This document shows, piece after piece, positions 1 through 32,778 of a DNA stretch of 33,405 nucleotides (within the stretch, counting starts at the first letter, position 1; every line of letters begins with the position of its first letter). Source of the stretch: a virus; IMG/VR virus record IMGVR_UViG_3300046373_000037, positions 1 through 33,405 of that record, one strand, 5' to 3'. The notes beneath the pieces were generated by a model. The model was not told where the DNA came from and made no database searches. It saw nothing but the letters and a program-made list of their open reading frames with translations. The position numbers were made by a program, and so were the translations under genes.

Positions 1-38
1 AAGGCGGGTGCGGCCGGGATCAACGTGGTGTCGGTCAT
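1..38 (-). CDS. 5' end of a gene cut by the left edge
   Basis: An ATG at 36-38 on the minus strand opens a frame (MTDTTLIPAAPA) that runs off the window. The start is supported by AGGAG six bases upstream and by an ATGA overlap with the stop of the preceding 108-residue membrane protein gene, a typical coupled start. Too little is visible to name it. A lysis or accessory gene is a guess from its position only. Confidence 0.55.
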   Translation of the reverse strand, partial: MTDTTLIPAAPA

Positions 39-361
39 GCGGGACTCCTGGGAGAAGTGCCCGCATCGGCGGGCTGGGTGGGTGTATCGAATGATTCGCA
101 GTGACCGGGCTGGATGCGGTCGAGCAGACGGCAGAGCACACAGCCCCAGATCCGCCCTTCCTTGCGCACCCGGTTCGCCCGAGCGCTCAGGTATTCGCCA
201 TCGATGCCGCCGGTCATCGCATTGCCGACGCGGTCGAAGCCGAGGGCGATAGTCCAGGCGCGCGGGGAGCCGACCAGAATGCAGACGAGCATGTACGGCA
301 GTGCGACGGCGGCGCACAGGATGCAGACGATCCAGATGGCGAAGAGGAGAAGGCGTTTCAT
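35..361 (-). CDS. small phage membrane protein, function unknown
   Basis: This is a 108-residue protein with a strongly hydrophobic N-terminal third: residues 3-34 are mostly Leu, Ile, Val, Ala and Cys, giving one or two membrane segments. It is followed by a basic stretch (SARANRVRKEGR) and a Cys-containing motif (CVLCRLLDRIQPGHC) near residues 75-90. I recall proteins with this CRLLDRIQPGHC-like motif as small conserved genes of proteobacterial phages, without a known role. The ATG has GGAG seven bases upstream. The gene sits just past an intrinsic terminator that ends the regulatory operon and is coupled to the next gene by ATGA. A lysis-related role such as holin or spanin is possible but nothing in the sequence proves it. 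Confidence 0.65.
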   Translation of the reverse strand: MKRLLLFAIWIVCILCAAVALPYMLVCILVGSPRAWTIALGFDRVGNAMTGGIDGEYLSARANRVRKEGRIWGCVLCRLLDRIQPGHCESFDTPTQPADAGTSPRSPA

Positions 362-374
362 GGGGCTCCAATAG

Positions 375-398
375 AAAAAGCCCGCGCGAGGGCGGGCT
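375..398 (-). terminator. intrinsic terminator of the antirepressor operon
   Basis: Read on the minus strand, AGCCCGC and GCGGGCT form a 7-bp GC-rich stem with a 6-nt loop, followed by five T. It lies about 30 bases after the stop of the Rha/KilAC gene and just before the ribosome binding site of the 108-residue membrane protein gene, so it should separate regulatory from downstream transcription. Confidence 0.8.
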
Positions 399-425
399 GA
401 ATGAATATCAATTTTGTTGCTGCTG

Positions 426-1199
426 TTACTGGATCATCCCTCCGTGGGGCGACTGCCTCGGCTTTGCAGCCCCGCCTGGCGCGGCAGGCATAAATCCATC
501 GTCCGCAAGCTTCTGCGCCAAGGCTGTCAGCCCGCGCCCGGTAATCCGCACCTGTTCGCTGATCTTGTCATCGCCGGTCACAGAGTCCCGGTAAGGCGTC
601 GACTTGTGGACCAGATGTCCAGACTGGATCCGGTCTTGGTAAGCAAGGTATCCACTCTTCCCTGCGCGGTGATAGATCCACTTGTTCATCACCAGCCAGG
701 CAGTAAGCTTGCTCGGCTGCACCTGTAGCGTCTTTGCGGCATCCCGGATGCAGAGCGTCGAAAGGGATTCAGAAATCCGATCGTGAATTTCTACCTTCGG
801 CGCCTGCTCGGCAACCTTGCCCTCCAGCGCAATGACCTTCTCGCTGTAGGTCAGCAACAGGCCTCGCATGGCGGCGGGGTCGTTCAGGACTGCCATCGGG
901 TCCACTGCTGACGGCGGTGCGGACTCAAGCTCCATCCACCGATCAATGATACGTTTCCTCAGCACAACGCTATACCCCGAAACCAACGTCAGCGTCAGTT
1001 CCTTGTTGAGATTGAAGCAAGGGAGGGCCCGCCCAGTGCTGTCTTTGTACTGAGCCGAGAACTCGGCTGAGTCCAGACCTAGCTGGGAAAGCATGTTTCG
1101 TATGTCGGCCAACACATGGCGATGCTCTTTTTCGCAAAGCACGCCAATTTCTCGACTCGTCATACTCAGCGGGCTGCCGCCAACGATCAGCGCGTTCAT
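426..1199 (-). CDS. Rha-type phage regulatory protein / antirepressor with KilAC domain
   Basis: The 257-residue protein has two parts. Residues about 10-95 match the Rha (pRha) phage regulatory family: an SREIGVLCEKEHRHVLADIR opening, an interior YKDSTGRALPCFNLNKE, and LVSGYSVVLRKRIIDRWMELE. Residues about 140-240 match the KilAC/ANT antirepressor C-terminal domain: IRDAAKTLQVQPSKLTAWL, then WIYHRAG, then VRITGRGLTALAQKL. Proteins of this type usually bind DNA or titrate a prophage repressor. The ATG is preceded by GGAGGGG and overlaps the stop of the upstream 75-residue gene as ATGA. It is the last gene of a four-gene minus-strand operon and is followed by an intrinsic terminator. It is the second candidate antirepressor in this operon. 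Confidence 0.85.
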   Translation of the reverse strand: MNALIVGGSPLSMTSREIGVLCEKEHRHVLADIRNMLSQLGLDSAEFSAQYKDSTGRALPCFNLNKELTLTLVSGYSVVLRKRIIDRWMELESAPPSAVDPMAVLNDPAAMRGLLLTYSEKVIALEGKVAEQAPKVEIHDRISESLSTLCIRDAAKTLQVQPSKLTAWLVMNKWIYHRAGKSGYLAYQDRIQSGHLVHKSTPYRDSVTGDDKISEQVRITGRGLTALAQKLADDGFMPAAPGGAAKPRQSPHGGMIQ

Positions 1200-1423
1200 G
1201 ATCCCCTCCGGCCGGCGACCAGATGAAACACCGGCGCTTTATGGCGCATCAGCACAGGATTCAGTGCGTACAGTTCGACCATCTGGACCGTTGTCTCCTG
1301 GACTTCGTCGTCGGTGTTCCGATGTGCGCGGATCAGGCGCTTCTCTGCATCTGTGAGGACCAGATCCTGCGCTTGTTGCTTACGCGCGGCGAGCCGCACG
1401 ATGTTGTTTGTGCTAGTATCCAT
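1196..1423 (-). CDS. unknown 75-residue protein in the antirepressor operon
   Basis: I do not recognise this family. The start is placed at the ATG at 1423 (MDTSTNNIVRLAARKQQ), which has GAAAG nine bases upstream. A longer frame to 1456 would begin inside an inverted repeat and has no binding site. The protein is polar and probably helical (AARKQQAQDLVLTDAEKRLIR at residues 12-32) with a hydrophobic C-terminal end. It overlaps the Rha/KilAC gene by ATGA, so it is probably made in step with it. A small DNA-binding or repressor-partner protein is possible. Confidence 0.6.
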   Translation of the reverse strand: MDTSTNNIVRLAARKQQAQDLVLTDAEKRLIRAHRNTDDEVQETTVQMVELYALNPVLMRHKAPVFHLVAGRRGS

Positions 1424-1453
1424 TTGCGTTACTTTCAAAAGTAGTTTCGCTCT

Positions 1454-1498
1454 CAAAGCCCCTGATCTCGTCCGCCAAGATTCTGATCAGGGGCTTTG
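1454..1498. terminator. 14-bp perfect inverted repeat, possible terminator or attenuator
   Basis: Bases 1454-1467 and 1485-1498 are exact reverse complements (CAAAGCCCCTGATC against GATCAGGGGCTTTG) with a 17-nt loop. It fills most of the gap between the Arc-like gene and the 75-residue gene. A run of five T follows on the plus strand. On the minus strand, where the neighbouring genes are read, only the CTTTG of the arm follows. It could be a weak terminator that lowers expression of the distal genes, or a protein site. Confidence 0.5.
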
Positions 1499-1503
1499 TC
1501 TTT

Positions 1504-1695
1504 TTAGGCATGCATTTCCTCTTGCGGCCGCGCGATTTCGGCGGATGTGAAGTCCGCATCCCTGGCCTCATCAACGGCCCTGTTCAGCACCCAGTTCACC
1601 GAACGATCCAAGCTTTCTGCTTTGGCTTTGAGCCAGGCGTGGTTCGCTTCCGTCGTGCGAAACTGGATCTGAACGACGTTCCCCGATTTCTTCAT
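1504..1695 (-). CDS. Arc-like ribbon-helix-helix DNA-binding protein
   Basis: The protein is 63 residues. An N-terminal strand (VVQIQFRTTEANHAWL) is followed by helix A (LKAKAESLD), a turn (RS) and helix B (VNWVLNRAVDEA), the pattern of Arc/Mnt/MetJ-type dimeric repressors, with an acidic C-terminal tail. The start is the ATG at 1695, not the earlier in-frame codon, because AAGGAG lies eight bases upstream and the ATG overlaps the stop of the BRO antirepressor gene (ATGA). Coupling to an antirepressor suggests it represses the operon promoter at 2491-2519, as Arc does in P22. That role is inference. Confidence 0.75.
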   Translation of the reverse strand: MKKSGNVVQIQFRTTEANHAWLKAKAESLDRSVNWVLNRAVDEARDADFTSAEIARPQEEMHA

Positions 1696-2456
1696 GCCTC
1701 TTCTCCTTGCTTCAGTAAAGGAAGAACAGTGGCTGCCCATTTGATTTGCTGGATAGGCACGCCGCTGCCATGACGCTTGCCTGTGTCGTAGATCCGAGCG
1801 AAGTCTTTTCCGGTTTCCGTTGCTTCCCAGACTTCGCCCCTTTTCATTTGGAAGCCAGCCTCCGCTAACAGAAGGTTAAGCTTCCGCCCCGACAAGCCAA
1901 TACGCTCACCCAGTTCTGTTGGGGTGAAAAATAATGCGTCTTGGTTTTCGGCCACCATGTGCGTTTGCCCCATCAGAGCCAACACATTTGGCCCGGCCAC
2001 CGCTTGTACGGCTTGATTTGCGCTGACGGCCGCAGACGACTTGTCGCATCCAATCATCCGGGCAATCTGGAAGAACGGACGGAACAACTTGACAGCCTCT
2101 AGTGTTTCAGTAGCTGTTGTTTTCGGCTTTCCGATTGTGTACGTGCCGGTGCGCCTAATCGAGGGCAAAATCTCCTCGAACACTAGTCGCTCAAACTTCT
2201 CTGCGGCCGGGAGTCCACTTTTTACGATGAGGCGCAGTACGTCAGGCTCGCTGATAATCCGGACGTCCTGAGTGCCACCCGAAGTTTGAAGGGGGTAGCG
2301 TTTGGCGACCCCCTTGCAGTGGTTCGATATAGCGTCGGTCGGGTTTGAATACCCAATGGCTTCCGCTACATCCTTTGCTACAAACCATGGCTCGCTGCCA
2401 ATATCAATTACTCGCACAGCGCGGCCATCAAATTGAAACGGGATCAAGTTACTCAA
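1692..2456 (-). CDS. BRO-N family phage antirepressor
   Basis: From the TTG at 2456 the product has 254 residues and begins MSNLIPFQFDGRAVRV, then EPWFVAKDVAEAIGYSNP and ISEPDVLRLIVKSGLPAAEKFE, then FEEILPSIRRTGTY. This is a complete BRO-N domain (about residues 1-105) as in phage and baculovirus antirepressors. The C-terminal half (GERIGLSGRKLNLLLAEAGF, then a WEATETGKDFAR segment) looks like the KilAC-type partner domain. The TTG start is chosen because AAGGAG lies seven bases upstream, BRO proteins commonly begin MSNLIPF-like, and the in-frame ATGs at 2597 and 2510 lie upstream of the predicted transcription start near 2484. First gene of the four-gene minus-strand regulatory operon. Confidence 0.85.
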   Translation of the reverse strand: MSNLIPFQFDGRAVRVIDIGSEPWFVAKDVAEAIGYSNPTDAISNHCKGVAKRYPLQTSGGTQDVRIISEPDVLRLIVKSGLPAAEKFERLVFEEILPSIRRTGTYTIGKPKTTATETLEAVKLFRPFFQIARMIGCDKSSAAVSANQAVQAVAGPNVLALMGQTHMVAENQDALFFTPTELGERIGLSGRKLNLLLAEAGFQMKRGEVWEATETGKDFARIYDTGKRHGSGVPIQQIKWAATVLPLLKQGEEA

Positions 2457-2463
2457 TTTAGCT

Positions 2464-2469
2464 CTCCTT
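2464..2469 (-). promoter_or_regulatory. ribosome binding site that fixes a TTG start
   Basis: AAGGAG on the minus strand, seven bases before the TTG at 2456. It is the only good Shine-Dalgarno sequence between the predicted promoter and the BRO-N domain, so it decides the start of the antirepressor. Confidence 0.75.
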
Positions 2470-2478
2470 ATGCCGACT

Positions 2479-2509
2479 TGGCATGAAGTCACTATATGAC
2501 TACTTGCCA
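2479..2509. promoter_or_regulatory. 31-bp imperfect palindrome over the antirepressor promoter (operator O1)
   Basis: Outer arms TGGCA/TGCCA at the two ends and inner arms AGTCA/TGACT around a CTATA centre form an imperfect palindrome. It covers the -10 box, most of the spacer and the expected start of the minus-strand promoter. A bound dimer or tetramer of an RHH repressor here would block the antirepressor operon. Function is inferred from position. Confidence 0.6.
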
Positions 2510-2519
2510 TTGATGTCAA
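2491..2519 (-). promoter_or_regulatory. strong sigma70-type promoter for the antirepressor operon
   Basis: On the minus strand a perfect TTGACA (2519-2514) is separated by 17 bases from TATAGT (2496-2491). Transcription would start near 2484, leaving a short leader that contains the AAGGAG site of the BRO gene. Such a near-consensus promoter needs tight repression in a lysogen, which fits the two palindromes overlapping it. Confidence 0.8.
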
Positions 2520-2539
2520 CTCGGAATCATTAATAATAT
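2510..2539 (+). promoter_or_regulatory. candidate plus-strand promoter for the RHH repressor gene
   Basis: TTGATG at 2510-2515, an 18-base spacer and TAATAT at 2534-2539 would start transcription near 2546, about 20 bases before the ATG at 2565. It overlaps the -35 region of the opposite promoter and the whole O2 palindrome, so the two promoters probably exclude each other. Confidence 0.5.
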
Positions 2540-2548
2540 TCCGAGTTG
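2517..2548. promoter_or_regulatory. 11-bp-arm palindrome between divergent promoters (operator O2)
   Basis: CAACTCGGAAT (2517-2527) and ATTCCGAGTTG (2538-2548) are exact reverse complements around an AT-only-but-one 10-base centre. The site covers the -35 box of the minus promoter and the -35/-10 region of the plus promoter. It is a natural place for autoregulation by the divergent RHH protein. Confidence 0.65.
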
Positions 2549-2564
2549 GCAGTATCATGCGCGT

Positions 2565-3188
2565 ATGACAACCAAAGCCTATCCCAGCGAACTCCAAGAC
2601 CGTTTCATCGTCCGCCTTCCCGACGGCATGCGCGATGAGATCGCTCGCGCTGCAAAAGCCAACGGTCGCAGCATGAACGCGGAAGTTGTCGCGCGTCTTA
2701 GCGCGCCCAACATGGGCGCCATGGCTTCAGACGTCATTGGCGCAATCACTCTACTTCAACAGCAAGTCGCTCGAGCCGAGGTGGAGGAGGTGCGCTTATG
2801 CGCAGACATGGGGATCGTCGCTCGCTGCTTCCTTATGTGTATTGATGAGCTTCCCAACGATGCTATCGATCCGGACACCAATTTCGCTCGTGACTTGAAA
2901 GAGTGGCGCGCGATGGCGGAACAAAAATATTTGTTAGCGGAAGCGAAAGTCGCAAAAACCGATGTTGTGGCGATGGTGGAGCGCCTTCAAATGTTGTCCG
3001 AGCAGGCTGACAAGATGTTTCCTGATGCTGTTGAGCCAACTGACGCGCCCAACTCCTTCGCAAATCCACCTCCACGCAGAATGAACACTAAGCGCAACAA
3101 GACCCAAACAAAGCCTGAACCTTCGCCCGAGCCAAAACCTGTCCAGCGCAAACTCAAATTCCGCTCGTCCGACCCCACCAAAAAATAA
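2565..3188 (+). CDS. RHH (Arc/Mnt-like) repressor with long C-terminal extension
   Basis: The protein is 207 residues. Residues 11-46 (DRFIVRLPDGMRDEIARAAK followed by ANGRSMNAEVVARLSA) form a clear Arc-type ribbon-helix-helix DNA-binding domain: strand, helix, turn with SMN, helix. Residues about 50-145 are mostly helical and may oligomerise. Residues 150-207 are a disordered, basic Pro/Lys-rich tail (repeated KP/EP). Mnt and Arc of P22 are only 83 and 53 residues, so the extension is unusual. It is transcribed away from the BRO antirepressor across shared operators, the Mnt position in P22. No Shine-Dalgarno sequence precedes the ATG, so translation may be weak or near-leaderless. Repressing the antirepressor operon is the inferred job. 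Confidence 0.8.
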   Translation: MTTKAYPSELQDRFIVRLPDGMRDEIARAAKANGRSMNAEVVARLSAPNMGAMASDVIGAITLLQQQVARAEVEEVRLCADMGIVARCFLMCIDELPNDAIDPDTNFARDLKEWRAMAEQKYLLAEAKVAKTDVVAMVERLQMLSEQADKMFPDAVEPTDAPNSFANPPPRRMNTKRNKTQTKPEPSPEPKPVQRKLKFRSSDPTKK

Positions 3189-3204
3189 AGCCGCTCAAGG
3201 CGGC
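3180..3204 (-). terminator. candidate minus-strand terminator at the end of the late operon
   Basis: On the minus strand GCCGC and GCGGC pair around a 5-nt loop and are followed by TTTATTTTTT. The stem is short. It would stop late transcripts that run past the transglycosylase gene (stop at 3791) before they enter the RHH repressor gene antisense. On the plus strand no U tract follows. Confidence 0.5.
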
Positions 3205-3215
3205 CAAAAATAAAA

Positions 3216-3521
3216 ATGAGACTCCTCAAATCCCTCGTTGCGATTGGAACCACAGGCATTTGCGAAGTCGACACCATCGAGCACGAAGGAAAGTTGTGGC
3301 TGGTGCCAGAGTGGATTGACGGACACCCATCCAAAGGATTTTCCACCCCAGCGCGCGCAATTCGGATTGACTCACTGCCTCGATCCGGGACGCTTGACCG
3401 GCCGGTGTTATATGACCCAATACCACAAGACGTTTTCGATGGGAAAGTAACTGGTCAATTTGAAGTGGTAGAGCTGCCGAACCTGTTCGTGCAGATAGGC
3501 ACTCCGGGCAATTTGCATTGA
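3216..3521 (+). CDS. unknown 101-residue protein
   Basis: Not recognised. It is a soluble-looking protein with a small beta-rich start (LLKSLVAIGTTGICEVDTIE, then GKLWLVPEW) and a Pro-containing middle. It lies 27 bases downstream of the RHH repressor gene on the same strand, so it may share that transcript. Only a distant AAGG precedes the ATG, so the start is uncertain. Base composition is closer to the regulatory island than to the virion genes. A lysogeny-expressed accessory role is an inference from its place only. Confidence 0.6.
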   Translation: MRLLKSLVAIGTTGICEVDTIEHEGKLWLVPEWIDGHPSKGFSTPARAIRIDSLPRSGTLDRPVLYDPIPQDVFDGKVTGQFEVVELPNLFVQIGTPGNLH

Positions 3522-3531
3522 GGGACATGTT

Positions 3532-3560
3532 TTGATCCTGAATTCGCATAAAAATACTAT
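3532..3560 (+). promoter_or_regulatory. candidate promoter for the small membrane protein gene
   Basis: TTGATC (3532-3537), a 17-base spacer and TACTAT (3555-3560) sit in an AT-rich stretch and each match the sigma70 consensus at four of six bases. Transcription would begin near 3567. This would let the downstream membrane protein be made independently of the repressor gene. Confidence 0.4.
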
Positions 3561-3621
3561 TGTCAAAGCTGCAAATGTTGTTTAAGGTTTGCTGGTCGCG
3601 ATGAATGCTAAGGAGCCGCAA

Positions 3622-3789
3622 TTGACTACCGACGACCTCTGGCGTGTTGCTCTTGTTGCTGCCGGCACTGGCGTGTTGACCTTATTCTTTCAGGCGCTAC
3701 GCAGACCCCCGAAGAAGGATGCGCCTATTGCCGAGCCGCCGGCATGGGCTAGGAAACTGTGGGCGCGCATCTCAGGAAGGGAGCGGTAA
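3622..3789 (+). CDS. small single-span membrane protein, candidate exclusion protein
   Basis: A TTG at 3622 has AAGGAG six bases upstream and opens a 55-residue protein (MTTDDLWRVALVAAGTG...). An in-frame ATG at 3601 would add seven residues but has only AAGG 13 bases away. Residues about 6-23 form one membrane segment (VALVAAGTGVLTLFFQAL), followed by a basic tail (RRPPKK) and WARKLWARISGRER at the end. The topology is N-out or N-in single span with a positive cytoplasmic-type tail. The gene is convergent with the transglycosylase gene, one base apart. In P22 the superinfection-exclusion gene sieA lies at this place between gene 16 and mnt; no sequence similarity is claimed. Confidence 0.6.
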   Translation: MTTDDLWRVALVAAGTGVLTLFFQALRRPPKKDAPIAEPPAWARKLWARISGRER

Positions 3790-3790
3790 A

Positions 3791-6586
3791 TCAGGGCTGC
3801 TTACTTCTGCCGATAGCCAGCGCCCGGATTGCGCCCGACATTTCCGGCGCACCAATCAACCCGCCATTTTTAAAGCTACGGAATATCTTGCTGCTGCCGC
3901 CCTGATTGAATGCACTTTGCGCCATCAGGTCATGGACCGGGCTTCCAGTATCAGCGCCTCCCACAGCGATAGCTGGCATTTGATTGAACTGCTGAGCAGC
4001 AGCAATTCGCTCTGGAATCGTGTCCTTGGTCATCATGTAGTTAATCTGATCATGAACCGGGCTCGATGCAGGCAGCAGGCGATTGACTGTCCTTGAATCA
4101 AATGGGGCAGGAACTTCATTCGGCGCGTCCAACCCCGGTGATACATCAAGTCCGGGCGAAACCGCATACGGATCGGGAGCGATGAGGCCGCCGTTGGCGT
4201 ACCCGAGTTCCTGCGTGTCGTAGCCCATTGACTCGAGTCCAAGCCCTTCATTCTGTCGGGTTGTCGCCGCTGCCATCATTACACTTTCAGCGCCCTGCTG
4301 CTGCGCCTGCTGCGCGCTGACCGCCCCTACGTGCTGCGCCTGTGCTGCTGCTTCGTCATCACCAATCATGCCGCCGTCGGCAAAGCCGGGTTGTTTGCCC
4401 TTGCGGTCATTCGGTACGCCAACCATGGCCGGCGCCAGCAGTGGCACTGCCGACGGCGACAGGCGCTTTACAGCATCTGCCATTGGCTGCGCGATGGCGG
4501 GTCGCGCGCTTACCGCGCCATTTAGGAGGGACTGGACCGGGCGGGCGTACAACGCCCCGCCGCCAATCAGGGCCGCCGGGATGGCTGGATTCAACACCCC
4601 GGAAGCGAGCGCACCAGCACCCCACATCATCCGCCCTGCCGTCCCGGAATCGGGAATCTTGTCGCCAAGTACGGTCTGTCCGGCCTTGCTCAAGTCCTGC
4701 ATGAGTGACTGCCCGCGTGCGGTTGCGTTGTCTCTCGCGGAGCCATCGGCCGCTCGTACTGCTTGGTTCAACTGCCCAGGAGTAAACACGCCCTCTTTCT
4801 GAACTCCCCTGTTGGCCGCATTCTCTACGCGGACGAGGTTGGCCCAGCCTTCGTTGATCTTCTTCAGTTGCGGCGCTTCGTTCGGATTGGATCGGGTTAG
4901 TGCGCCACGGAAGGAGTCCAACGCATCGCCCAGTGCGCTGCCCAACTTCTTCTGGTAACCGTCGGTGGCTCCCGAGAAGTTTGTTGCATCATTGCGAAGG
5001 GAGGATTCCAACACCTTGAAGTCCTTGCCTGACATCGTGCCAGTCTGACCGAAGCCATCCAGATGACCCTTGATCAGTGAATTGAACATGTCCGTCTCCT
5101 GCGGGCGCAGGCTGTGACTGGCTGCGATGCGTGACAGATCATTGACCATTTGCTGGTCGGGGCGGAACGTCATCCCGGTCAGCAGGTTGTCATAGGCGCC
5201 GCTGAGCGCCTGGTGCGCGGCATCCACGCCTTCATGCCCAATGCCGTCCACTTTTACGCCGATCGGCGCAGTGGCGCGGTTGATCGCCGCATTATTGAAT
5301 TCATCCCGTGCCTGCCCGCGCGCGCGCCGGATCATGTCGCCCATGATTGGCATTCCCTGCAGTTTTTCCTCGGTGGCGTTGGCCCAACCTCCCAGCGTCT
5401 GCCCGATCGTTGGAGTAACGCCCTCATCTTTGAGCAGTTGCACCCTCGGATTTACCGAAGCATTCGGACTGATCAGGCGCGAGATTGCGCCAGCGGCTAC
5501 GGGGATAGCCCCACCAACGGCGGCACCGGCGCCGACCTGCTGTGCCTTATCGGACCAGAAGTCATCCGATGCGACTGGCGTAAGTGCGCCGGATGCTGCG
5601 CCGGATGCAGCGCCAAGCCCAACGCGCCCGATAGGCGAGGCGGCCTGCGGGACGCGGGATGCGGCAACAACGTTTGCAGGGCTCAGGATGTTTCCGAGTG
5701 CGCGGTAACCGTCGATGCCAGTCTCGCCGTTTGCGGTACGGGCCTGCTCATAGGCCTGCTCGCGCTGCTTGATCTCGTTGGCAATTCCGCCTTCTGGCAT
5801 GCGGGGCAATATTCCGCCAGTCTTGTCGGATGCCCAGTTGGCGACATTGGCGATCGTATTGTTGACCGAGTCCGGTAGTGCCTTCGTTATCAACTGCGAT
5901 GCAGCGGCAATCGGGTCCATCGCGCCATGTAGGAACGATACGGTGCGCTGCGGCAGCGGATTGCCATTGATGTCGGTCGTCACCGACAGGCCGGTAGGCT
6001 TGGCCGCCGTAGGCGCCGCGGCTGGTTCCGATTGTGCGGCTGCTGCTGCCGGCTGCGCGAATGGATCGTGATCGACTTCGGTAAAGGTCGGGCCAGCGTT
6101 CTTCGGGATACGAGCGGCCACCTGCTGGCCATATTGCAGCGTGGTCGGCGCATTCGGATTGCGCGGGTCAGCCACGGCAACACCCTGCCGGGCCTTCTCC
6201 AGTCCGCCCGGGCCACCATAGTAGCCAGCCGCGGTCAGCGCCGGGTCGCCGCCAGCCTTGTCGTACATCTGGCTGATGTAGCGTACGCCGGCCCGGGCAT
6301 TGTGCTCCGGGTTGTTGATGTCCCATCCCTGATCGGCCACGCTCTTGAACGTCGACGGAATCACCTGCATACCGCCGACCGCCCCAGCGTTCGACGTCTT
6401 TGTATTGCGCCCGCTGCCCGACTCCTGCTGGTAGATGCTGCGCGCAATGGCAGCGACCGGCGCTGGCGTGCCTTCTGCAGCAAGGGCGTTGTCCAGCGGC
6501 GAGGTCTTTGCTACCGGCGCACTCCCGCCGGTAGAGGGCGCCGGGGCGGCAAACGGGTCGTGATCAACTTCCGTAAAGGTAGGCAT
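3791..6586 (-). CDS. ejection protein with lytic transglycosylase domain
   Basis: The protein is 931 residues. Residues about 40-130 are an SLT-type lysozyme-like domain: IARSIYQQESGSG with the likely catalytic Glu55, then GAVGGMQVIPSTF, NNPEHNARAGVRYISQMY and a YYGGPGGL end. This domain opens peptidoglycan during DNA entry. It is flanked by two copies of TFTEVDHDPFA (residues 3-13 and 167-177). Residues about 380-650 (DEGVTPTIGQTLGG onward) resemble a helical region common in phage internal virion proteins. A hydrophobic Gly/Ala stretch near 660-690 may insert in membrane. The C-terminal part carries three motifs FADGGMI, YANGGLI and FKNGGLI (residues about 735, 796, 905). The start overlaps the previous stop as TAATG. 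It is the last late gene, analogous in place to P22 gene 16. Confidence 0.85.
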   Translation of the reverse strand: MPTFTEVDHDPFAAPAPSTGGSAPVAKTSPLDNALAAEGTPAPVAAIARSIYQQESGSGRNTKTSNAGAVGGMQVIPSTFKSVADQGWDINNPEHNARAGVRYISQMYDKAGGDPALTAAGYYGGPGGLEKARQGVAVADPRNPNAPTTLQYGQQVAARIPKNAGPTFTEVDHDPFAQPAAAAAQSEPAAAPTAAKPTGLSVTTDINGNPLPQRTVSFLHGAMDPIAAASQLITKALPDSVNNTIANVANWASDKTGGILPRMPEGGIANEIKQREQAYEQARTANGETGIDGYRALGNILSPANVVAASRVPQAASPIGRVGLGAASGAASGALTPVASDDFWSDKAQQVGAGAAVGGAIPVAAGAISRLISPNASVNPRVQLLKDEGVTPTIGQTLGGWANATEEKLQGMPIMGDMIRRARGQARDEFNNAAINRATAPIGVKVDGIGHEGVDAAHQALSGAYDNLLTGMTFRPDQQMVNDLSRIAASHSLRPQETDMFNSLIKGHLDGFGQTGTMSGKDFKVLESSLRNDATNFSGATDGYQKKLGSALGDALDSFRGALTRSNPNEAPQLKKINEGWANLVRVENAANRGVQKEGVFTPGQLNQAVRAADGSARDNATARGQSLMQDLSKAGQTVLGDKIPDSGTAGRMMWGAGALASGVLNPAIPAALIGGGALYARPVQSLLNGAVSARPAIAQPMADAVKRLSPSAVPLLAPAMVGVPNDRKGKQPGFADGGMIGDDEAAAQAQHVGAVSAQQAQQQGAESVMMAAATTRQNEGLGLESMGYDTQELGYANGGLIAPDPYAVSPGLDVSPGLDAPNEVPAPFDSRTVNRLLPASSPVHDQINYMMTKDTIPERIAAAQQFNQMPAIAVGGADTGSPVHDLMAQSAFNQGGSSKIFRSFKNGGLIGAPEMSGAIRALAIGRSKQP

Positions 6587-8517
6587 TATTCTTTCACCAT
6601 GGCGTATTTACCGTTGGGCTGCTTGACGTAGTAATTGCCGTCCGGGGCCAGCTTGGCTTCGGTTTTCGTGCCGTTGAATGGCACGACCTTGACCGCCGGT
6701 TGTTGTGCGCCTGCGGGAGCGCCGCTTGCTGTTGCTGTCCCATCCGACTTCGGCGCAAAGTGCTCGCGCCAGTCCTTGCGCGCTGGGTTCAGGTCGAACG
6801 TGCCGGCCTTCTCCTTCGATGGGTCGAAGATCGGGTTCTTGTCGACGTATTCCTTCCAGTAGCGCTCCGAACCGGCAAGTGTGCGGTTCTGCTCGAGGTA
6901 CGTTTGGCGGAAATTCGCATAGTCTTGCTGCTGCTTGGCGTTCGCAATAATGCCCTTGGCAATGTTCGCGTTGGTTTCCTGTGGCTTGTCCACGCCGATG
7001 GTGGCCCGTCCGAACAGCCGCATGTCGGAGTCGGACGAGCTGCCAGAACCAGCCGGGCGCGCATTCGGCGTGAGCTTGGAGGTGATGGCCTCCATCGTTG
7101 CATAGTCGGGGCTGAATCCTTTTGCCCACCGACCCACTCCGGTTTTATCGATAACGCCGCCGGTGCTGTTTTTCTGGTTCAGTTCGAGGAACTGCTTGGC
7201 GTCCTGCGCCGTAAGGGCCAGCGCCCGCGCCGCATCGCTGTCCTTCTCGACTTCCTTGCCGCCGCGCGCGATCTCGGCCGCCTGGACCTTGTTGGCGTCG
7301 CGCGAATTGGTCTGCCCTGTCCATGGCTTCACTGCCGGCACCGGCACGCCAAGGATCGGCGCAGTTGCCGGCGCATCCGTTTCGGCGACGCCATTGGTGA
7401 CCCGTGCCACGTCGACCTTGCCCTTGTTTTCTTCCTTGACCTTGGCGATCTCAGCGGCGGACTTTGCTGCCATTGGATCGGCCGCATTGACCGCATTCTG
7501 CGTCTGCGCTGCCTGGTACTTGGCAATCGCATCAGGGCCACCGTCAGCGATGTCCCTTGGCACTTCCTGCATATACCCAGATGCCTGCCCGGCAGTGGGG
7601 TTAGGCTGGGCGACAGTCTGCGTCAATCCACGAATCACGCTCACCGGCTGCTGGTCCTGCCCGGCCTGTGCGCTCTGCTGGTTGAACTGCTGCACGTCAT
7701 CTGGCAAGCCCTGCCCGCTCATCAGGCCGGGGCGCAGGTCGGTCGTCGTGCCGTCAGCCCGGTAAGCCTTCGAGCTTTCGGAACCACCGCCGAATGTGGC
7801 AAAGCCGATCCGCGCCTGTGGCTGGCCGCCTGATGGCCCGCCGACATTGAGGAATGAACCGCCGCCGCTATCGGCGGGTTGTGTGATGTCCTGCTGCGGG
7901 CCCATCTTCTGGCGGATGATGTCGCCGATCGGATCGCCTTCACGGTAGGCCTGGTTCTGATTGTTCGTCAGGTTCTGTGCGCGATAGGCGTCGTCGTATT
8001 GCGGCATCAGCGCGGCGATGGGACTCGGCGGATTGACCGACCCACGGCCAGCGCCAGCAGTCGAGTTGCCTGACTGCGCAATCACTGGCACATTCAGCGG
8101 TCCGTTCGCCGTACGGGCAGTCTGCGCCACGTCGGCGATCTTCTGCGGCTGCTGGGCGGCGCTCAAGATGTTGGCGGCCAGGCCATCGTCGCCGATAGAC
8201 GTTTTGAAGTAATCGGGATTAGTAGCGACGCCACCTGTCGCAGCGCCCGTTGCTGCTGCGCCGCCGGCGAGCAGGCCGATTGCGCCAGCGGCCAGACCAG
8301 CCGGCGCCATGCCGGCGGCGCGAGACAGCGGACCAGCGGGCTGTGTCGCAGGAGCGGCCAGCCGGGGCACATCAGCAGGCGCAGCGAGCTGTGGCGCGCT
8401 TTCCGGCGTATAGAACGGCACCTGCTGCGCCGGCAGATTGCCCGAGCCGGCAAGGCGGGCAATAGACCCTGGCCGACGCGATTGCGAAGGATCGGTGAGT
8501 GCGTCGAGAAGTTCCAT
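6586..8517 (-). CDS. putative ejection (internal virion) protein
   Basis: The protein is 643 residues with an Ala/Gln/Pro-rich, low-complexity N-terminal half. Residues about 68-97 are an Ala/Gly-rich hydrophobic segment (GLAAGAIGLLAGGAAATGAA) of the kind seen in proteins that insert into the cell envelope on infection. The middle is rich in NQ and likely flexible. Residues about 480-600 (LTPNARPAGSGSSSDSDMRL, then KQQQDYANFRQTYLEQN and WKEYVDKNPIFDP) resemble a conserved region I recall in podovirus ejection proteins. It is coupled by TAATG to the transglycosylase gene and follows the giant repeat protein by two bases. P22 gp7/gp20 are functional analogues by position; homology cannot be judged here. 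Confidence 0.65.
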   Translation of the reverse strand: MELLDALTDPSQSRRPGSIARLAGSGNLPAQQVPFYTPESAPQLAAPADVPRLAAPATQPAGPLSRAAGMAPAGLAAGAIGLLAGGAAATGAATGGVATNPDYFKTSIGDDGLAANILSAAQQPQKIADVAQTARTANGPLNVPVIAQSGNSTAGAGRGSVNPPSPIAALMPQYDDAYRAQNLTNNQNQAYREGDPIGDIIRQKMGPQQDITQPADSGGGSFLNVGGPSGGQPQARIGFATFGGGSESSKAYRADGTTTDLRPGLMSGQGLPDDVQQFNQQSAQAGQDQQPVSVIRGLTQTVAQPNPTAGQASGYMQEVPRDIADGGPDAIAKYQAAQTQNAVNAADPMAAKSAAEIAKVKEENKGKVDVARVTNGVAETDAPATAPILGVPVPAVKPWTGQTNSRDANKVQAAEIARGGKEVEKDSDAARALALTAQDAKQFLELNQKNSTGGVIDKTGVGRWAKGFSPDYATMEAITSKLTPNARPAGSGSSSDSDMRLFGRATIGVDKPQETNANIAKGIIANAKQQQDYANFRQTYLEQNRTLAGSERYWKEYVDKNPIFDPSKEKAGTFDLNPARKDWREHFAPKSDGTATASGAPAGAQQPAVKVVPFNGTKTEAKLAPDGNYYVKQPNGKYAMVKE

Positions 8518-8519
8518 GC

Positions 8520-11500
8520 CTATGATCCTTTGTGCGTGGTGATGTCGCTGTAGCTGACGCCGAAGCTCGTGCTGCCGGAGTTCGACGCACTGTTGCTGGC
8601 GCTGTTGGTCGCCGCATTGCTGCTGCTGTTGCTTGCCGAATTGCTGCTGTTGTTCGAGGCTGAATTACTGCTGCTGTTGCTCGAATTGTTCGAGGACGAA
8701 TTGCTGCTCGAATTGCTGCTGCTGTTGGAGGATGCATTGCTGCTCGAGTTGCTCGAACTGTTGCTGGACGAGTTCGACACACCCGACGAAATCGACGCAT
8801 GCACTGACCGCGCCGATAGCGCCGCTGCCGCCAGTTGACCGGCGACCTGGCCTGCCGCCCGCAATGACGCCTGCGCCGTTTCGGCCGCGCTCATCGCCAC
8901 CTTCAGGTTCGCCTCGCCCGCCTGCAGCGCCAGTTGCGCCTGCGAGGTGTAGACCGCTGTCGTCGCCTTCACGACCTCGACCTGCGCCTTGGTGTGCTCG
9001 TTCTTCGCGCCTTCGGTCGCTGCATAGGCCTTGACCTTGGTGTCGAACACGCCGACCACCGCGCGCAATCGCTCCGCTTCCGCAGAGACGCCAGCCTGAT
9101 AGGACTGCACCTGCGTCTTGAACGACTCCAGCGGGAATTCGGCCAACTGCTTGAAGTTCAAGTTCGCCTCGCCGAGCTTGGCGGTCACCAGGGTGCCGTA
9201 GGCGTCCACGCGGCTCTTGTAGGCGCCGACCTGCTGACCGAAGGCGTCGAGCTTGATCGACTCGGCCTTGACCCGGGTGCTGTACGCCTCATACTCCGAA
9301 GCCTTCGCCTTCACCAGGCTGTCGAAGCCGAGCAGCTGGTTGCGGTAGATTTCCGACTGCACCAGTTCGGCCTTGACCTGTTGTTCGTAATTATTGAACT
9401 CGGAATCCTTTGCCTTGATCTGCGCATCAAAGCCGGACAACTGCGCCTTATAAACCTCGATTTTATTGAGTTCCGCACGGATGCGCGAGTCATATCCCTG
9501 GTATTCCAACGCTTTCGCACGTACCAGCGATTCGAAGCCGGCAAGCTGGTCCTTGAAGATCTCGGCCTTTTGGGCCTGACCCTTCAACTGCGCGTCGTAG
9601 TTCGCGTATTCCGCTTCCTTCGCTTTGACCTGGCTGTCGAAGCCGAGTAATTCCGCCTTGAACGCCTCGATCTTGTTGAGCTCGTTGCGCGACAGGATGG
9701 CGAAGTTTTCAAACTCCTGGCCCTTGGCTTTGACTTGAGCTTCGAAGCCACTGATTTCGGCCCGGTAAATGTCGGCCTTGACTGCTTCGGCCCGGCTCTG
9801 GGCCTCGTAATTGCTGTATTCCTGACCCTTGGCCTTGACGCTGGAGTCATAACCGAGCAGCTGGGCGCGGAACACCTCGATCTCGTTCAACTGAGTCTTG
9901 CTCAAGGTGGCGAACGCTTCGTACTCGGCCGCCTTGGCACGTACCTGGCTGTCGAAGCCAGCCACTTCGGCCTTGTACAGTTCAGCCTCGATACCTTGGG
10001 CGTCAACCTGTGCCTTGTAGGTCGCCACGTCGCTGTCACGGGCCTTGATCTGCGCTTCATACCCGGCCAGCAGCGCGCGATACACTTCAACCTTGTTCAG
10101 TTCGGCTTTGGTCTGCGCGGTGTAATTCTCAAACTCGGCCGATTTGGCCCGGACAGTCGAATCGAACCCGGCAACCTCGGCCTTGTAAATGTCGGCCTTG
10201 ATGCTCTCGCCCTCGAGCTGGGCCTTGTAATTCTGGTATTCGCTGTCCTTGGCCTTAATCTGGCTTTCATACCCGATCAGTTCGGCCTTGTAGACTTCGA
10301 CCAGATTCAACTGTACCTGCGACAGCGTCTTGTAATTGTCGAACTCGGCGATCTTCGCGCGCACGGTCGAATCGAAGCCGGCCAATGACGCCTTGTAGAT
10401 CTCGGCCATCACGTTCTGTGCATCGACTTGTGCCTTATACGCGGCGAATTCGGCTTCCTTGCCACGAATCTGCGCCTCGTATCCGGCAATCTCGGCCTGG
10501 TACAGCGCAATCTTGCGGGCGTCGACTTGAGATTGTGCGGCATAGTTTTCGTATTCGGCCCGCTTGGCCTCGACCTGCGCCTGAAATCCGGCGATCTGCG
10601 CCTTGAACAGGTCGGCAGAAATGCCCTGAGCCCGGTATTGCGCCTCGTAGTGGGCAAATTCGCTGTCCTTGGCCTTCACCAGCGAATCGAACCCGGCCAG
10701 CGCCGCTCTGAACACTTCCACCTTGTTCAGTTCGGTCTTGCTAACCGTGGCGTAATTGTCATACTCGGCCGACTTGGCGCGCACCAGTGCGTCAAAGCCG
10801 ACCATCTGCGCCTTGTACAGCTCGCCCTTGATGGATTCGCCTTCAATTTGGGCCTTATAGCCCTCGTATTCAGCGGATTTTGCCCTGATCTTGCTGTCCA
10901 CTCCGCCCAGTTGCGCGGTGAATAGTTCGACCTTCGCCAATTCGCCCTTGACGCGGGTCGCATAGCCTTCGAACTCGGTGCTTTTCGCTTTCACCTGCGA
11001 GTCATAGCCCTGCAGCTGGGACCGGAACACTTCAACCTTGCTCATGTCGGCATCGATCCGCACTTTCACGGCTTCGACACGGGTCCGGTAGATTTCGGCC
11101 ATCGATTTGACCGCATCGATCTGCGCGGTGTAGACGGCCACCGCCTGCTGGTTGATCTCGCCGACCAGCTTCTGCCCTTCCAGTTCGGCCTTGTAGATGT
11201 CCAGTTGCGCCAATGCCGCGTCTAGGCGGGTCTTGAACACTTGCGCGCGCACGCCGAATGCCGAGACGTCCGCATTGAACAGCGCGACCCGGGCGTTGAA
11301 GATGTCGACCACGGCCTGGAACGTGAATTTCGCTGCGTCCAGCGCGCGATTCTGAACCTGGTTGAAATGCTCGATCAGGCGCGACTCCAGCTGCATGGCC
11401 AGGTTGAACGCGAACTGGAAATTGCTCTGTTCGAGCTCAGCCTGCTTGATCATCACGTCGCGGGACAGTGCGCCGTCGGCATTCATGCCCTCCTGCATCG

Positions 11501-29896: not shown

Positions 29897-30220
29897 CTAG
29901 TTCCTCATCCGTGCCTGGCACTCGACAAACCACTCAGCCCGCAACCCCGCGCCCGCATCTGCCACGATGGTCGCCACATAACGCCCACCAGCAGCCAGCG
30001 CCAGCGTATAGGGCAGTGTAGCCCGGTAAATCCCCTTGCTTCCGGCGACGTAGGCCATATTCTTCGGCCACGTCTCGCCGGCCACATCCACGCCAGTACT
30101 GTCCTTCAGCTGCACGGTCACGGCGGCTGCATTCAAATCTGCCCCGGTCAGTTCATTCTTCAGCGCGGCGACTTCCAGCACGCTATCGTTGCCGACATAG
30201 AGTATTGCGATGTTGCTCAT
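29897..30220 (-). CDS. small virion-associated protein, immunoglobulin-like
   Basis: The 107-residue protein is all beta by appearance: IAILYVGNDSVLEVAALKNE, AAVTVQLKDSTGVDVAGETW, KGIYRATLPYTLALAAGGRY, VATIVADAGAGLRAEWFVEC. The ending RAEWFVE-type strand and the overall size recall small Ig-like phage fibre or base proteins. It overlaps the upstream repeat-protein gene by ATGA and ends just before terS. It probably pairs with the fibre proteins encoded before it. Confidence 0.55.
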   Translation of the reverse strand: MSNIAILYVGNDSVLEVAALKNELTGADLNAAAVTVQLKDSTGVDVAGETWPKNMAYVAGSKGIYRATLPYTLALAAGGRYVATIVADAGAGLRAEWFVECQARMRN

Positions 30221-31524
30221 CTCGGCCTCAAGTTTGGTGCGCCGCGCACTGCCGCAGCGAGTTTGCTGTGAGCCATGACGGCAGGATGTATGTCTGGGGT
30301 CCCGCCCAGGAGCGACTGAATCGAGATCCGGGCGGACAGTTCGCCGCGCGCGACGCTGGCAACCGTGATGGCGGCAATCGTCGTCTGCGCCTGGCTAGTT
30401 GCTGCGGTCGAGGCGATGACATCCGATGCGCGGACTTCTGCGCTGGTCGTTTGTCCCTGTCCTGTACTGCTGGCGGCGTCTGCCGCGATCAACCCGGATG
30501 CCGTGCTGCCCTGCCCCTGGGCGGTCTGTGCTGCCGTATCTGCTCTTACTGCGCCAGCCAAGACCGCCGACTGCGCCTGACTCGACGTTGCCAGCGTAGT
30601 CGCGCTCACGCTTGCTGCCGCCTGTGCGCCTTGCGCCTGCCCTGTCGCTGCAGTCGACCCGACAACGGTAATGGCGCCGATCGTGCCGTTGACTACCTGC
30701 CCTTGCGCCGTGGCCGCGGTGCTGTCTGCTGCTATTGCTGTTGACGCCTGCAACGACTGCGTTGCGGTGGTACTGACGGATGCGCTTGCCGACGTCGATG
30801 CCGCTGCGGTGGTTGACTGCGCCTGGCTTGCGGTGACAGTGGCGCTGACGCCATCCGCCGCCGTGACGGCAACTGCCTGTCCCTGACTGGTCTGCGCGAC
30901 TGCGTCAACAGCGATTGCTCCGAATGCCTGTGCGACCTGTCCCTGTGCCGTCGCTATCGACGCATCAGTCGTCGTAACCGCGCCAACCTGCGCCGCGACG
31001 CTCTGGCTTTGTGCTGCTGCTACTGATGCGTCAACGCTGACAGTTGCAGCACTCCCAGCAGACTGTGCCTGCGATGCAGCAGTGGCGGCGCTGCTTCCTG
31101 TGCTGCCAGCTACGCTTCCTGACTGCGCTTGGGCAGTAGCGACCTGTCCAGCCGCGCTAACCGAGCTCGATGCTGCGCCACCTTGCGCTTGCGTCGATGT
31201 AATAGCGGTTGATACGCTAATGCTTCCGCTTGCGCCAGCCGACTGCACCTGAGCTGCGGTCGCCGTTGCGGACGCGGCAATGGTGCCTGCCGCACTCGCC
31301 GATTGGCCTGCTACCACGCTAACCGTCGCATCAGCACTGATACTGGCGGCAGCCGTCGCGCCTTGCGTTTGCGTCGCTGTTACTACCGCGTCAACGCCGA
31401 CACTAGCTGACGCCGCGGCTGTTTGCGCTTGCGATGTCGTGGCCGCAACGCTCACCGCTGCTTGTGCTGCGACTGCTTGTGACCCTAATGGCAGCTCAGA
31501 TACCGCGCCGAATCCGAGTGCCAT
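30217..31524 (-). CDS. fibre-like protein of QxQ repeats
   Basis: The 435-residue protein is almost wholly Ala, Ser, Thr, Val, Gln and Gly. After MALGFGAVSELPLGSQAV come about 18 units of mostly 20 (18-22) residues marked by Gln-x-Gln (for example QAQGGAASSSVSAAGQVATA and QGQVAQAFGAIAVDAVAQTS). Alternating small hydrophobic and polar residues suggest paired short beta strands, as in a solenoid or amyloid-like shaft. The last 45 residues (RGELSARISIQSLLGGTPDI, then HPAVMAHSKLAAAVRG) are not repetitive. GAGGAA precedes the ATG. It lies between a Gly-rich fibre gene and the terminase genes. A trimeric fibre is plausible; function is unproven. Confidence 0.65.
   Translation of the reverse strand: MALGFGAVSELPLGSQAVAAQAAVSVAATTSQAQTAAASASVGVDAVVTATQTQGATAAASISADATVSVVAGQSASAAGTIAASATATAAQVQSAGASGSISVSTAITSTQAQGGAASSSVSAAGQVATAQAQSGSVAGSTGSSAATAASQAQSAGSAATVSVDASVAAAQSQSVAAQVGAVTTTDASIATAQGQVAQAFGAIAVDAVAQTSQGQAVAVTAADGVSATVTASQAQSTTAAASTSASASVSTTATQSLQASTAIAADSTAATAQGQVVNGTIGAITVVGSTAATGQAQGAQAAASVSATTLATSSQAQSAVLAGAVRADTAAQTAQGQGSTASGLIAADAASSTGQGQTTSAEVRASDVIASTAATSQAQTTIAAITVASVARGELSARISIQSLLGGTPDIHPAVMAHSKLAAAVRGAPNLRPR
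30390..31460 (-). repeat. QxQ coding repeats, about 60 bp each
   Basis: Most of the 435-residue protein is built of about 18 units of 18-22 residues, with Gln-x-Gln at the start of nearly every unit. Length is mostly 20 with occasional 22 or 18, so the repeats are related but not locked. Confidence 0.75.
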
Positions 31525-31542
31525 GAATCAGTTCCTCATCGG

Positions 31543-32778
31543 TTAGGCGACAACGACGCCCTTCCAGGCCGATCCCGTATAAATCCACAGCTTCGCACCC
31601 GTGGTATCGAACACCATCGGCACCGTGCCTGTCGGGATCGATGCGGGCACTCCGGTTGGGGTGCCGGCGCAGGTAGGGATGCAGGCAAAGCCGCCGGTAG
31701 CAGTCGTCGCCAGGGCTGCGCCTGTGCCGTTCAGCACGACGTTGCCGGCTGCGCCAGTTCCCGTTGGCGCACCGCCAGCCAGGGAAATATTGCCCCCATT
31801 CTGGTTGGTGCCTAGTCCAGCACCGCCGGCAATCACGACCTTACCCCCGGCGCCCGTACCACCGCCGACCGCGCCGCCCGTTATATTTACGTTTGCCCCC
31901 GCCGCGGCGTTGGAGCTGCCCGGCGCGATGTTAATCGTGCCGCCCGCAGTAATGTTTGTGCCCGCGCCCGTGTAAAGATTTAATGCGCCGACGCTGGATG
32001 AGCTGTCCGCCGTGGTGATGAGGGTCGGTGCGCCTGTGCTCGCCCCGCCAGGGCCCGCCTTTATAGTGACGCCGCCGCCGCCGACCACGCCAGAACTGGC
32101 CGCGCCGCCGGATATGGTGACAGTGCCTGCCTGATTAGTGTTCACGCCGTTGCCAGCTGAAATGACTACGTTGCCGCCATTGCCCGCCCCACCCCCGACT
32201 CCATCTCCTGCTTTTAGGTTCAGCGCCCCACCGGCGCCACCTGCAGCAGGAACGCCGCCCGAGATGGTGACTGCGCCGCCTGCTCCGGAAGTCGAGCCAC
32301 CTGGCCCGCCGCTGACAGTGACCGTGCCGCCGACGCCCGTTGCGCCAGGGGTGCCCCCGGTGACGCTGACCGCACCGCCGGCATTGGCAGAAGTGGAAGA
32401 CCTGCCGCCGACCAAGGAAGCTGTGCCGCCCTGCGTGCCCGAAAGTCCAGTCGGATTGGCGGCAAGCGCGGCGGTAATGTCAATCCAGACCTGGGTCGTA
32501 CCTGTTGCCAGCGTCACGGCGGCGCCCGCATTGCTGGATGCCTGCACCGTCGTTCGGGTTAGCGCATTCGTCGCTGAATAGGTGCCCAGACCGCATTCCC
32601 AGACGCCGGTCGGCACACCCGATCCATCCACCGCCTGCAGCGCGTAATAGCAGGTGTCGCCCACCGCGCAGACGGCCGAGAACGCACGGAACCCTGTGGC
32701 AGCCCCGGCGAGCGTAAGCGCACCTGTACCGGTGGTCGTGGACGTTTCTCGGACCCGATCTGCGACGATGAGTGCCAT
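31543..32778 (-). CDS. tail fibre-like protein with glycine-rich shaft
   Basis: The 411-residue protein has three parts. Residues 1-105 (MALIVADRVRETSTTTGTGA, then AVCAVGDTCYYALQAVDGSG and TYSATNALTRTTV) form an N-terminal domain I recall in many phage tail proteins, ending WIDITAALAANP. Residues about 112-360 are glycine-rich repeats of roughly 17 residues of the form GGxVxIxGGxxxxTGxG. The last 45 residues (IPTGTVPMVFDTTGAKLWIY, then TGSAWKG) match the small tip seen at the end of phage fibres. A host-binding fibre is the likely role. Confidence 0.75.
   Translation of the reverse strand: MALIVADRVRETSTTTGTGALTLAGAATGFRAFSAVCAVGDTCYYALQAVDGSGVPTGVWECGLGTYSATNALTRTTVQASSNAGAAVTLATGTTQVWIDITAALAANPTGLSGTQGGTASLVGGRSSTSANAGGAVSVTGGTPGATGVGGTVTVSGGPGGSTSGAGGAVTISGGVPAAGGAGGALNLKAGDGVGGGAGNGGNVVISAGNGVNTNQAGTVTISGGAASSGVVGGGGVTIKAGPGGASTGAPTLITTADSSSSVGALNLYTGAGTNITAGGTINIAPGSSNAAAGANVNITGGAVGGGTGAGGKVVIAGGAGLGTNQNGGNISLAGGAPTGTGAAGNVVLNGTGAALATTATGGFACIPTCAGTPTGVPASIPTGTVPMVFDTTGAKLWIYTGSAWKGVVVA
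31699..32445 (-). repeat. glycine-rich coding repeats, about 51 bp each
   Basis: Residues about 112-360 of the fibre-like protein repeat GG-x-V-x-I-x-GG with Ser/Thr/Ala/Gly linkers. They could form a polyglycine-II or beta-sheet sandwich shaft. Confidence 0.7.

Follow-up and report, generated by a model that had tools for sequence, protein, structure and literature searches.

In phage P1, immI is a secondary immunity region in which the c4 antisense RNA controls the antirepressor Ant1/2; to our knowledge it has no pair of ribbon-helix-helix (RHH) genes. The closest described system for the locus discussed here is immI of phage P22. In the P22 reference genome, gene 16 is followed by three genes of the opposite strand (sieA, orf59a and mnt) and these by arc-ant and gene 9; the antisense RNA sar starts inside ant and terminates at the stop codon of arc. 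According to passages of two papers, mnt, arc and sar control ant, and the Ant protein disables the C2 repressor (PMC11016777; PMC2629481). The locus is a textbook one, found in print mainly as an oddity of P22. The 2008 paper naming the 'ant moron' asked whether the locus marks the sole place in the late operon that tolerates insertions or goes back to a single ancestral event (PMC2629481). The sequence analysed in this work is the complete IMG/VR record IMGVR_UViG_3300046373_000037 of 33,405 bases (the window). Its island at 426-3188 is probably an immI-type secondary immunity module like that of P22 (an 'ant moron'), inserted among the late genes of a temperate podovirus, as judged from sequence comparison.

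The core of the island is formed by an RHH gene on the plus strand that diverges from a four-gene operon on the minus strand, with the order BRO, arc, p75 and Rha/KilAC. An earlier note on this DNA had described an ejection gene followed by plus-strand open reading frames (ORFs), a divergent RHH gene and a minus-strand operon of BRO, Arc-like and Rha/KilAC genes, and the corresponding domains were found with Pfam and PHROG. Its interval of 1196-3789 has to be redrawn because the Rha/KilAC gene was left outside, and its gene list overlooked both p75 and the ORF of 101 amino acids (aa) behind the repressor gene. The two antirepressors that it proposed have the domains of such families, with Bro-N in the first and both Phage_pRha (PF09669, 51.3 bits) and ANT (PF03374, 90.2 bits) in the second exceeding the Pfam cut-offs; the NCBIfam phage_pRha match of the second stays under its cut-off. 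The proposed likeness to P22 immI is supported by the anatomy, by the recurrence of the architecture in 60 of 80 surveyed loci, and by a sar-like element at the place of P22 sar. The gene order 'ant then arc' holds for BRO, which precedes arc, and fails for Rha/KilAC, which follows arc as ant does in P22.

The repressor P0005 shares 13 of 30 residues with P22 Mnt (E 7e-7) and is 40% identical over its length to the repressor of survey locus L004. The Arc-like protein P0003 has no Pfam match and owes its assignment to PHROG. A profile of P0003 and nine survey homologues matches Arc and Mnt, and the AlphaFold model (pLDDT, predicted local distance difference test, 83) has RHH proteins as its nearest folds.

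At the arc stop codon the plus strand could form a hairpin with a stem of 14 bp (1454-1498) that is followed by TCTTTTT. The fold of 1420-1506 has a predicted energy of -32 kcal/mol (z -6.4), which none of 200 shuffled sequences equalled. A candidate extended -10 element, TGCTAGTAT, precedes the hairpin. In the surveyed loci a start of the gene past the hairpin was found in 34 of 35 cases, and in these it is 69-92 nucleotides (nt) from the arc stop. The motif ANNNTAGCA, an extended -10 for the other strand, occurs at 15 of 34 such gene starts, many of which are mutually related, as compared to 11 of 330 background ORF starts. Of 60 loci, 36 have the combination of hairpin and T-run on the antisense strand and 8 have it on the sense strand. 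In L004, L046 and L050 the loop read on the sense strand, CTTGGCGGA, recurs with differing stems. Two Rfam matches were not accepted: PK-repBA (1386-1496, minus strand), a plasmid leader under antisense-RNA control, scored 26.3 bits against a cut-off of 45, and mir-932 was regarded as chance.

Covariation was examined in an alignment (A13) of 30 rows picked by eye from 60 regions, from which the window, P22, L004, L046 and L050 were excluded. In this alignment 94.2% of the cells are paired. Changes on both sides were counted in 26 cells versus 7.0 in shuffles, a count that can be inflated by kinship among the rows. On four of the five measures none of 500 shuffles reached the observed value, and on the remaining one 27 did; the pairing was lost when the partner was shifted. 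Model R1, built from A13 and hence with neither P22 nor the window among its training sequences, recovers P22 sar with an E-value of 7.8e-8, and also finds L034 (1e-6), L046 (0.01) and L004 (0.016), each at the arc stop. A match in L026 is not independent, since the model had been trained on L054, a locus of its sequence type; nothing was found by R1 in L029 or L018. Over 33 further loci the model gave 15 matches at E up to 1. Those in L033, L037, L051 and L084 are at the arc stop, and those in L083 and L076 lie elsewhere. The gathering score of the Rfam sar family (RF00262) is passed by three of eight sources (P22, L085 and L058). The hairpin element of the window is probably a sar-type antisense RNA.

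The intergenic region between the divergent genes contains four copies of a 13-bp palindrome, TGCCRA-S-TYGGCA, read by eye from the sites and centred at 2545, 2520, 2503 (degenerate) and 2477. A 14-bp motif was derived from three of the sites, ATGCCGACTTGGCA (2470-2483, plus strand), ATTCCGAGTTGACA (2514-2527, minus strand) and ATTCCGAGTTGGCA (2538-2551, plus strand). These three, each with 0 mismatches, are the sole matches in the whole window at up to one mismatch, where 0.09 would be expected, and 0 of 100 shuffles give three. The motif stems from the window sites themselves, and the independent test is provided by the other loci. With up to two mismatches allowed, 12 of 60 dereplicated intergenic regions contain it at least twice (expected 0.0) and 15 of 60 at least once (expected 0.1), the expectation being taken from control stretches of the same loci. 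The spacing of the sites resembles that of the window in L034, L029, L037 and L004. The intergenic region also holds an inverted repeat with 11 matching pairs, a value reached in 0 of 300 shuffles. Loci with the repressor sequence FNLRFPDGM show GGGCCAASTTGACAT-like sites instead, which would fit a binding specificity set by the beta-strand and is offered as a lead only. We infer that the Mnt-like protein binds the operator-like array. An imperfect palindrome at 2479-2509 was considered as a separate Arc operator and rejected, as comparison across loci favours its reading as O3 with part of O4.

The state of these elements bears on the view that the island is no more than a decaying mosaic of genes whose regulation does not work. 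Such a fate would agree with the frequent degradation of related ant morons reported in PMC2629481 and with a T-run and sar match that are weaker than in enterobacterial cassettes. However, reading frames are open throughout the four genes of the operon and in that of the repressor, 4-nt overlaps are kept at two junctions, the candidate operon promoter (P_ant) has 11 of 12 consensus matches, and three operator sites are free of mismatches. With these features in place, decay is quite improbable.

To survey related modules, the N-terminal RHH domains from six repressors of this type were used as queries against viral contigs. The best 80 of at least 513 confirmed loci were analysed; they were picked by their Mnt-like N-terminus alone and are the nearest to the window repressor, not a random draw. 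The other cassette genes were sought with profiles seeded from seven cassettes and P22, in genes called with a simple ORF caller that is error-prone in GC-rich DNA. Among these best 80 loci a divergent small RHH gene (arc) was found in 72, a same-strand antirepressor in 61, both in 60, and at least two antirepressors in 28. Dereplication at 90% DNA identity left 68 loci, with corresponding counts of 60, 50, 49 and 19. The pairs of antirepressors among the best 80 include BRO with ORF6N (15), BRO with Rha/KilAC (5, two of them on weak Rha/KilAC matches of 5e-5 in L066 and 2e-5 in L092), Rha/KilAC with P22_AR (3) and Rha/KilAC with ORF6N (3). Pfam confirms the antirepressor labels for seven proteins in six loci, one of them with ANT under the cut-off. 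Besides the window, a BRO gene before arc was seen in L029 only. Five of the weaker Arc-domain hits of the first search (L009 and L011-L014) have same-strand neighbours and no module.

Differing antirepressor types follow similar mnt/arc heads. This agrees with the modular evolution that the earlier note had put forward, as does the lack of the island at this place in two relatives of the window phage, G001 and G355. The convergent evolution that it had offered alongside is not needed, and we reject it as the cause of the likeness to P22. Similar RHH repressors, arrays of operator-like sites and the hairpin element are met again in phages where the neighbouring genes differ, in keeping with a family of moving modules. 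We lean, with modest confidence, towards the view that P22 immI is one member of a widespread family of mobile late-operon switches. These would have in common the RHH repressor type, frequently a TGCCRA-S-TYGGCA array with site 2 on the -35 box, a sar-type RNA at a gene junction and an exchangeable antirepressor cargo (BRO, Rha/KilAC, ORF6N or P22_AR). In the window the antirepressors would flank the arc/sar point, one of them escaping the RNA and the other obeying it. Two survey loci show other arrangements. In L081 (3448-6510) the operon reads arc, BRO, arc, Rha/KilAC and may be a join of two modules. In L104 (around 6001-8900) several RHH and antirepressor genes lie in a row on both strands, which suggests repeated insertion of such modules.

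A number of results weigh against the immI-type reading of the island. The R1 match in the window (1434-1509, E 0.0032) is weak and such E-values are rough, and the Rfam sar model gave no match in window positions 1-6000 at E up to 1. R1 missed L050 at its arc stop, and its matches in L081, L098, L030, L036, L045 and L069 lie behind the stop of another operon gene, in L081 behind Rha/KilAC. The hairpin finder missed P22's own sar, which has a weak T-run. The P_mnt promoter is weak (9 of 12 consensus positions), and 48 of the 60 dereplicated loci lack the window motif at two places. Of the best 80 loci, 20 are without arc or a recognised antirepressor (arc is missing in 8, and 12 others with arc lack such an antirepressor). 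No pairwise similarity was found between P22 Arc or Ant and the window proteins P0003, P0001 or P0008, including by BLAST of P0003 against Arc. Finally, the main repressor, the presumed target of the antirepressors, is not encoded within the contig. This last point would also fit a module that serves mainly as a weapon or switch against the repressors of co-resident prophages and has no cognate target in its own phage. The free exchange of antirepressor types behind the same head, which would be odd if each fitted one resident repressor, is in line with such a role, and antirepressors are reported to act in trans between prophages (PMC3121763). Yet in P22 the protein bound by Ant is C2, the repressor of the same phage, and lysogeny is reduced when immI is deleted (PMC11016777), and we consider a role directed mainly at other prophages unlikely.

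The genomic position of the modules was examined through the longest ORF lying on the operon strand within 4.5 kb to either side in the 49 dereplicated loci with both arc and an antirepressor, of which 44 left and 45 right flanks were taken. The results are family totals and give no verdict per locus. Among the top 25 matched families of the left flanks, 21 are tape measure proteins, one is a tail protein and one the central fibre J. The right flanks are more mixed, with tape measure, fibre, spike and lytic tail families, an 'internal virion protein with endolysin domain', unknowns and one regulator. Flanking ORFs on the operon strand often match tail or other virion families, and by these totals the random placement that the earlier note had named as a refutation is not seen. 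Ten right flanks were also inspected singly: L047 and L103 match the internal virion protein with endolysin domain, L072 an endolysin family, two have no match and the others match unknown families. Because of the matches in L047, L103 and L072, a podovirus-like ejection gene beside the module is, by family assignment, present beyond the window and P22.

The same position could indicate that the island is chiefly a transcriptional gate, in which array-bound RHH protein or the hairpin tunes read-through into fibre or spike genes farther downstream, with antirepression in a lesser role. The cassettes are embedded in late genes, and their antirepressor operons point the same way as these (the longest flanking ORF is on the operon strand in 41 of 46 left and 38 of 47 right flanks), and a role of the P22 ant moron in the tailspike level is discussed in PMC2629481. 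Conserved antirepressor genes, sometimes two, would be superfluous for a gate, and the module occurs at other late positions too, for example between the tail assembly chaperone and the tape measure gene. A gate as the main function is therefore quite improbable, and an immI-type immunity module is retained as the preferred interpretation.

Comparison with the relatives defines the borders of the island. The late genes of the window are on the minus strand, and small and large terminase, portal (Pfam P22_portal, E 5e-92), capsid, head closure and an ejection-type gene were recognised. Contig G001, a phage contig of 62.4 kb, has a portal protein 80% identical to that of the window and an ejection gene with 48-51% identity. 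Past the ejection gene, G001 has homologues of both flanking genes, first that of the 62-aa protein (46%) and then that of the 35-361 gene (64%), with a 136-aa gene between them and an ORF of 903 aa after them. No cassette gene was found in G001. Of seven window proteins searched in four G001 stretches (about 1.2 kb left out) the 62-aa protein alone matched, the product of the 3216-3521 ORF was not found in the stretches searched, and P0008 was not found in the whole record. The GC content of the cassette is 54.7%, versus 59.0-67.2% in 89 other 3.1-kb windows of the contig. Because G001 lacks cassette genes and the cassette has the lower GC content, the cassette is, on this comparison, inserted between two backbone genes. 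The 62-aa 'membrane protein', which the earlier note had included in the island, lies outside it.

In the more distant relative G355 the genes past the ejection gene are unlike the cassette. In G355 (L111, 3766-4386) the gene past the ejection gene resembles, by eye, a pentapeptide-repeat protein, which would be another candidate cargo at this slot. A profile of the ejection gene matched only G001 among the viral contigs, gave three matches at E up to 1e-10 in 369 class-level genomes, one of them strong (G355), and found only G355 itself in 210 genomes of its family. The virion genes of the window have no pairwise BLAST similarity to the P22 portal or gp16. At the place where the tailspike or fibre gene follows in P22 immI, the contig ends; the next large ORF of G001 (903 aa) has no PHROG match and a Pfam match below the cut-off. 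Elsewhere in the window, the region 30217-32778 upstream of the genes for terminase encodes two proteins (435 and 411 aa) that have no PHROG or Pfam match.

Positions of the genes and predicted elements are collected in Table 1. The promoter scan as a whole gave three promoter-like sites where 1.9 are expected. The BRO protein is 66% identical to that of L029, which is likewise the product of operon gene 1. In a DNA-level search of phages, seven Bordetella phages share 114 bases with the window, within the BRO gene only; proteins P0002 and P0003 searched against phages gave no match. For p75, a 70% identical homologue is present at the matching place in L004, and a third member (36%) lies in the L041 cassette, likewise between arc and the next gene. 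No match was found in the family libraries searched, and a p75 profile run over the viral contigs retrieved the L004 contig again and nothing else. The predicted structure is helical and of low confidence, no relative of p75 was found in the PDB, and the core of the protein presumably resembles the helical tail of CI-type repressors, which is our impression. The Rha/KilAC protein has a homologue in the L004 cassette with 31% identity over the alignment. The ORF at 3216-3521 has no family match at the thresholds used apart from one PHROG at chance level.

Table 1. Genes and predicted elements of the island and its borders, with positions in the window.
Feature	Position	Strand	Remarks
Backbone gene at the other side of the insertion	35..361	-	G001 homologue 64% identical
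Rha/KilAC antirepressor, 257 aa, operon gene 4	426..1199	-	Pfam; start overlaps p75 end by 4 nt
p75, 75 aa, between arc and Rha/KilAC	1196..1423	-	L004 homologue
Candidate extended -10 for sar-like RNA	1411..1419	+	TGCTAGTAT; equivalent pattern at other loci
Candidate sar-like antisense RNA	1434..1505	+	Hairpin and T-run ending at arc stop codon (1504-1506)
Arc-like RHH protein P0003, 63 aa	1504..1695	-	phrog_3180, E 1.5e-6; 4-nt overlap with BRO gene
BRO-type antirepressor, 254 aa, operon gene 1	1692..2456	-	Bro-N (PF02498) 74 bits, cut-off 25.6; TTG start after AAGGAG
Operator-like array O1-O4	2471..2551	.	13-bp palindrome TGCCRA-S-TYGGCA
O4	2471-2483		Array site
O3, degenerate	2497-2509		Array site
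O2	2514-2526		Array site; overlaps P_ant -35 (contains TTGACA)
O1	2539-2551		Array site
Candidate antirepressor-operon promoter P_ant	2491..2519	-	TTGACA-17-TATAGT; 11/12 consensus matches
Mnt-like RHH repressor P0005, 207 aa	2565..3188	+	Pfam Arc 48.9 bits (cut-off 20.4)
101-aa ORF behind repressor gene	3216..3521	+	Not found in the G001 stretches searched
62-aa backbone protein, flank, outside module	3601..3789	+	One hydrophobic stretch; homologue at same place in G001
Ejection-type gene	3791-6586	-	Pfam SLT; PHROG 'DNA ejection protein' match

In view of the above, a possible course of regulation can be considered. In the lysogen the Mnt-like protein would bind the array and silence the operon, as in P22. 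Infection or induction would then set off the operon for a short time, and the antirepressors would inactivate a main repressor encoded outside the contig, after which the Arc-like protein would turn the operon off. That the antirepressors act on the repressor of their own phage is presumed from knowledge of these families. The sar-like RNA would repress p75 and Rha/KilAC and spare BRO, since BRO lies ahead of arc and the hairpin. The position of the hairpin would thus place the two antirepressors under split control, BRO being subject to transcriptional control alone and Rha/KilAC to both transcriptional control and antisense RNA. The module gives the impression of two known types fused together. 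Its head begins with BRO, as does that of L029, whose BRO protein is 66% identical, and its arc-p75-Rha/KilAC tail resembles L004.

The survey answers the question raised in PMC2629481 in part, as modules are found beside ejection-like genes as well as at tail-gene positions, with antirepressors that differ. The operator motif and the sar-like element together make the regulation of such modules predictable from sequence, and the latter would extend sar, so far a single Rfam family, to other phages. No title or abstract describing a general family of such modules was found in the open-licence literature searched.

The nearest counterparts show how the parts are combined. L004 (IMGVR_UViG_3300046373_000142) shares a full-length repressor homologue, arc, p75 and Rha/KilAC with the window, but it has no BRO gene and carries an additional 106-aa gene. 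L029 (IMGVR_UViG_3300044658_000186) shares the BRO-first operon and the operator array, whereas p75 and Rha/KilAC are absent from the stretch read. In Salmonella phage SPN3UB and Paracoccus phage Pyei1 an Arc-like gene diverges from a small RHH gene beside tail genes; SPN3UB has Bro-N/P22_AR_C and ORF6N antirepressors behind arc, and Pyei1 has a single Rha/KilAC antirepressor. Both cassettes are annotated gene by gene and not as a module.

With respect to P22, the window module is of the immI kind, with the larger part of its anatomy, but is not a strict P22 immI, because its antirepressors, BRO and Rha/KilAC, are not of the P22 Ant family and sieA is absent. Neither 3216-3521 nor 3601-3789 has a family match at the cut-offs that would indicate a sieA-like gene, and the 62-aa membrane protein was rejected as a SieA analogue in view of its backbone homologue at the same place in cassette-free G001. 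Other differences are the p75 gene within the operon, the position of BRO before arc, a repressor of 207 aa as compared to 83 aa in P22, and a different operator motif. The features in common with P22 immI are the position immediately after the final ejection gene in the late operon, a repressor gene that runs against the late direction, and divergent promoters with operators, which are candidates in the window. Two RHH genes diverge from a common control region in both phages, with BRO intervening as operon gene 1 in the window. In P22 arc precedes the antirepressor, which in the window applies to Rha/KilAC but not to BRO, and the antisense terminator at the arc stop codon of P22 has a predicted counterpart in the window.

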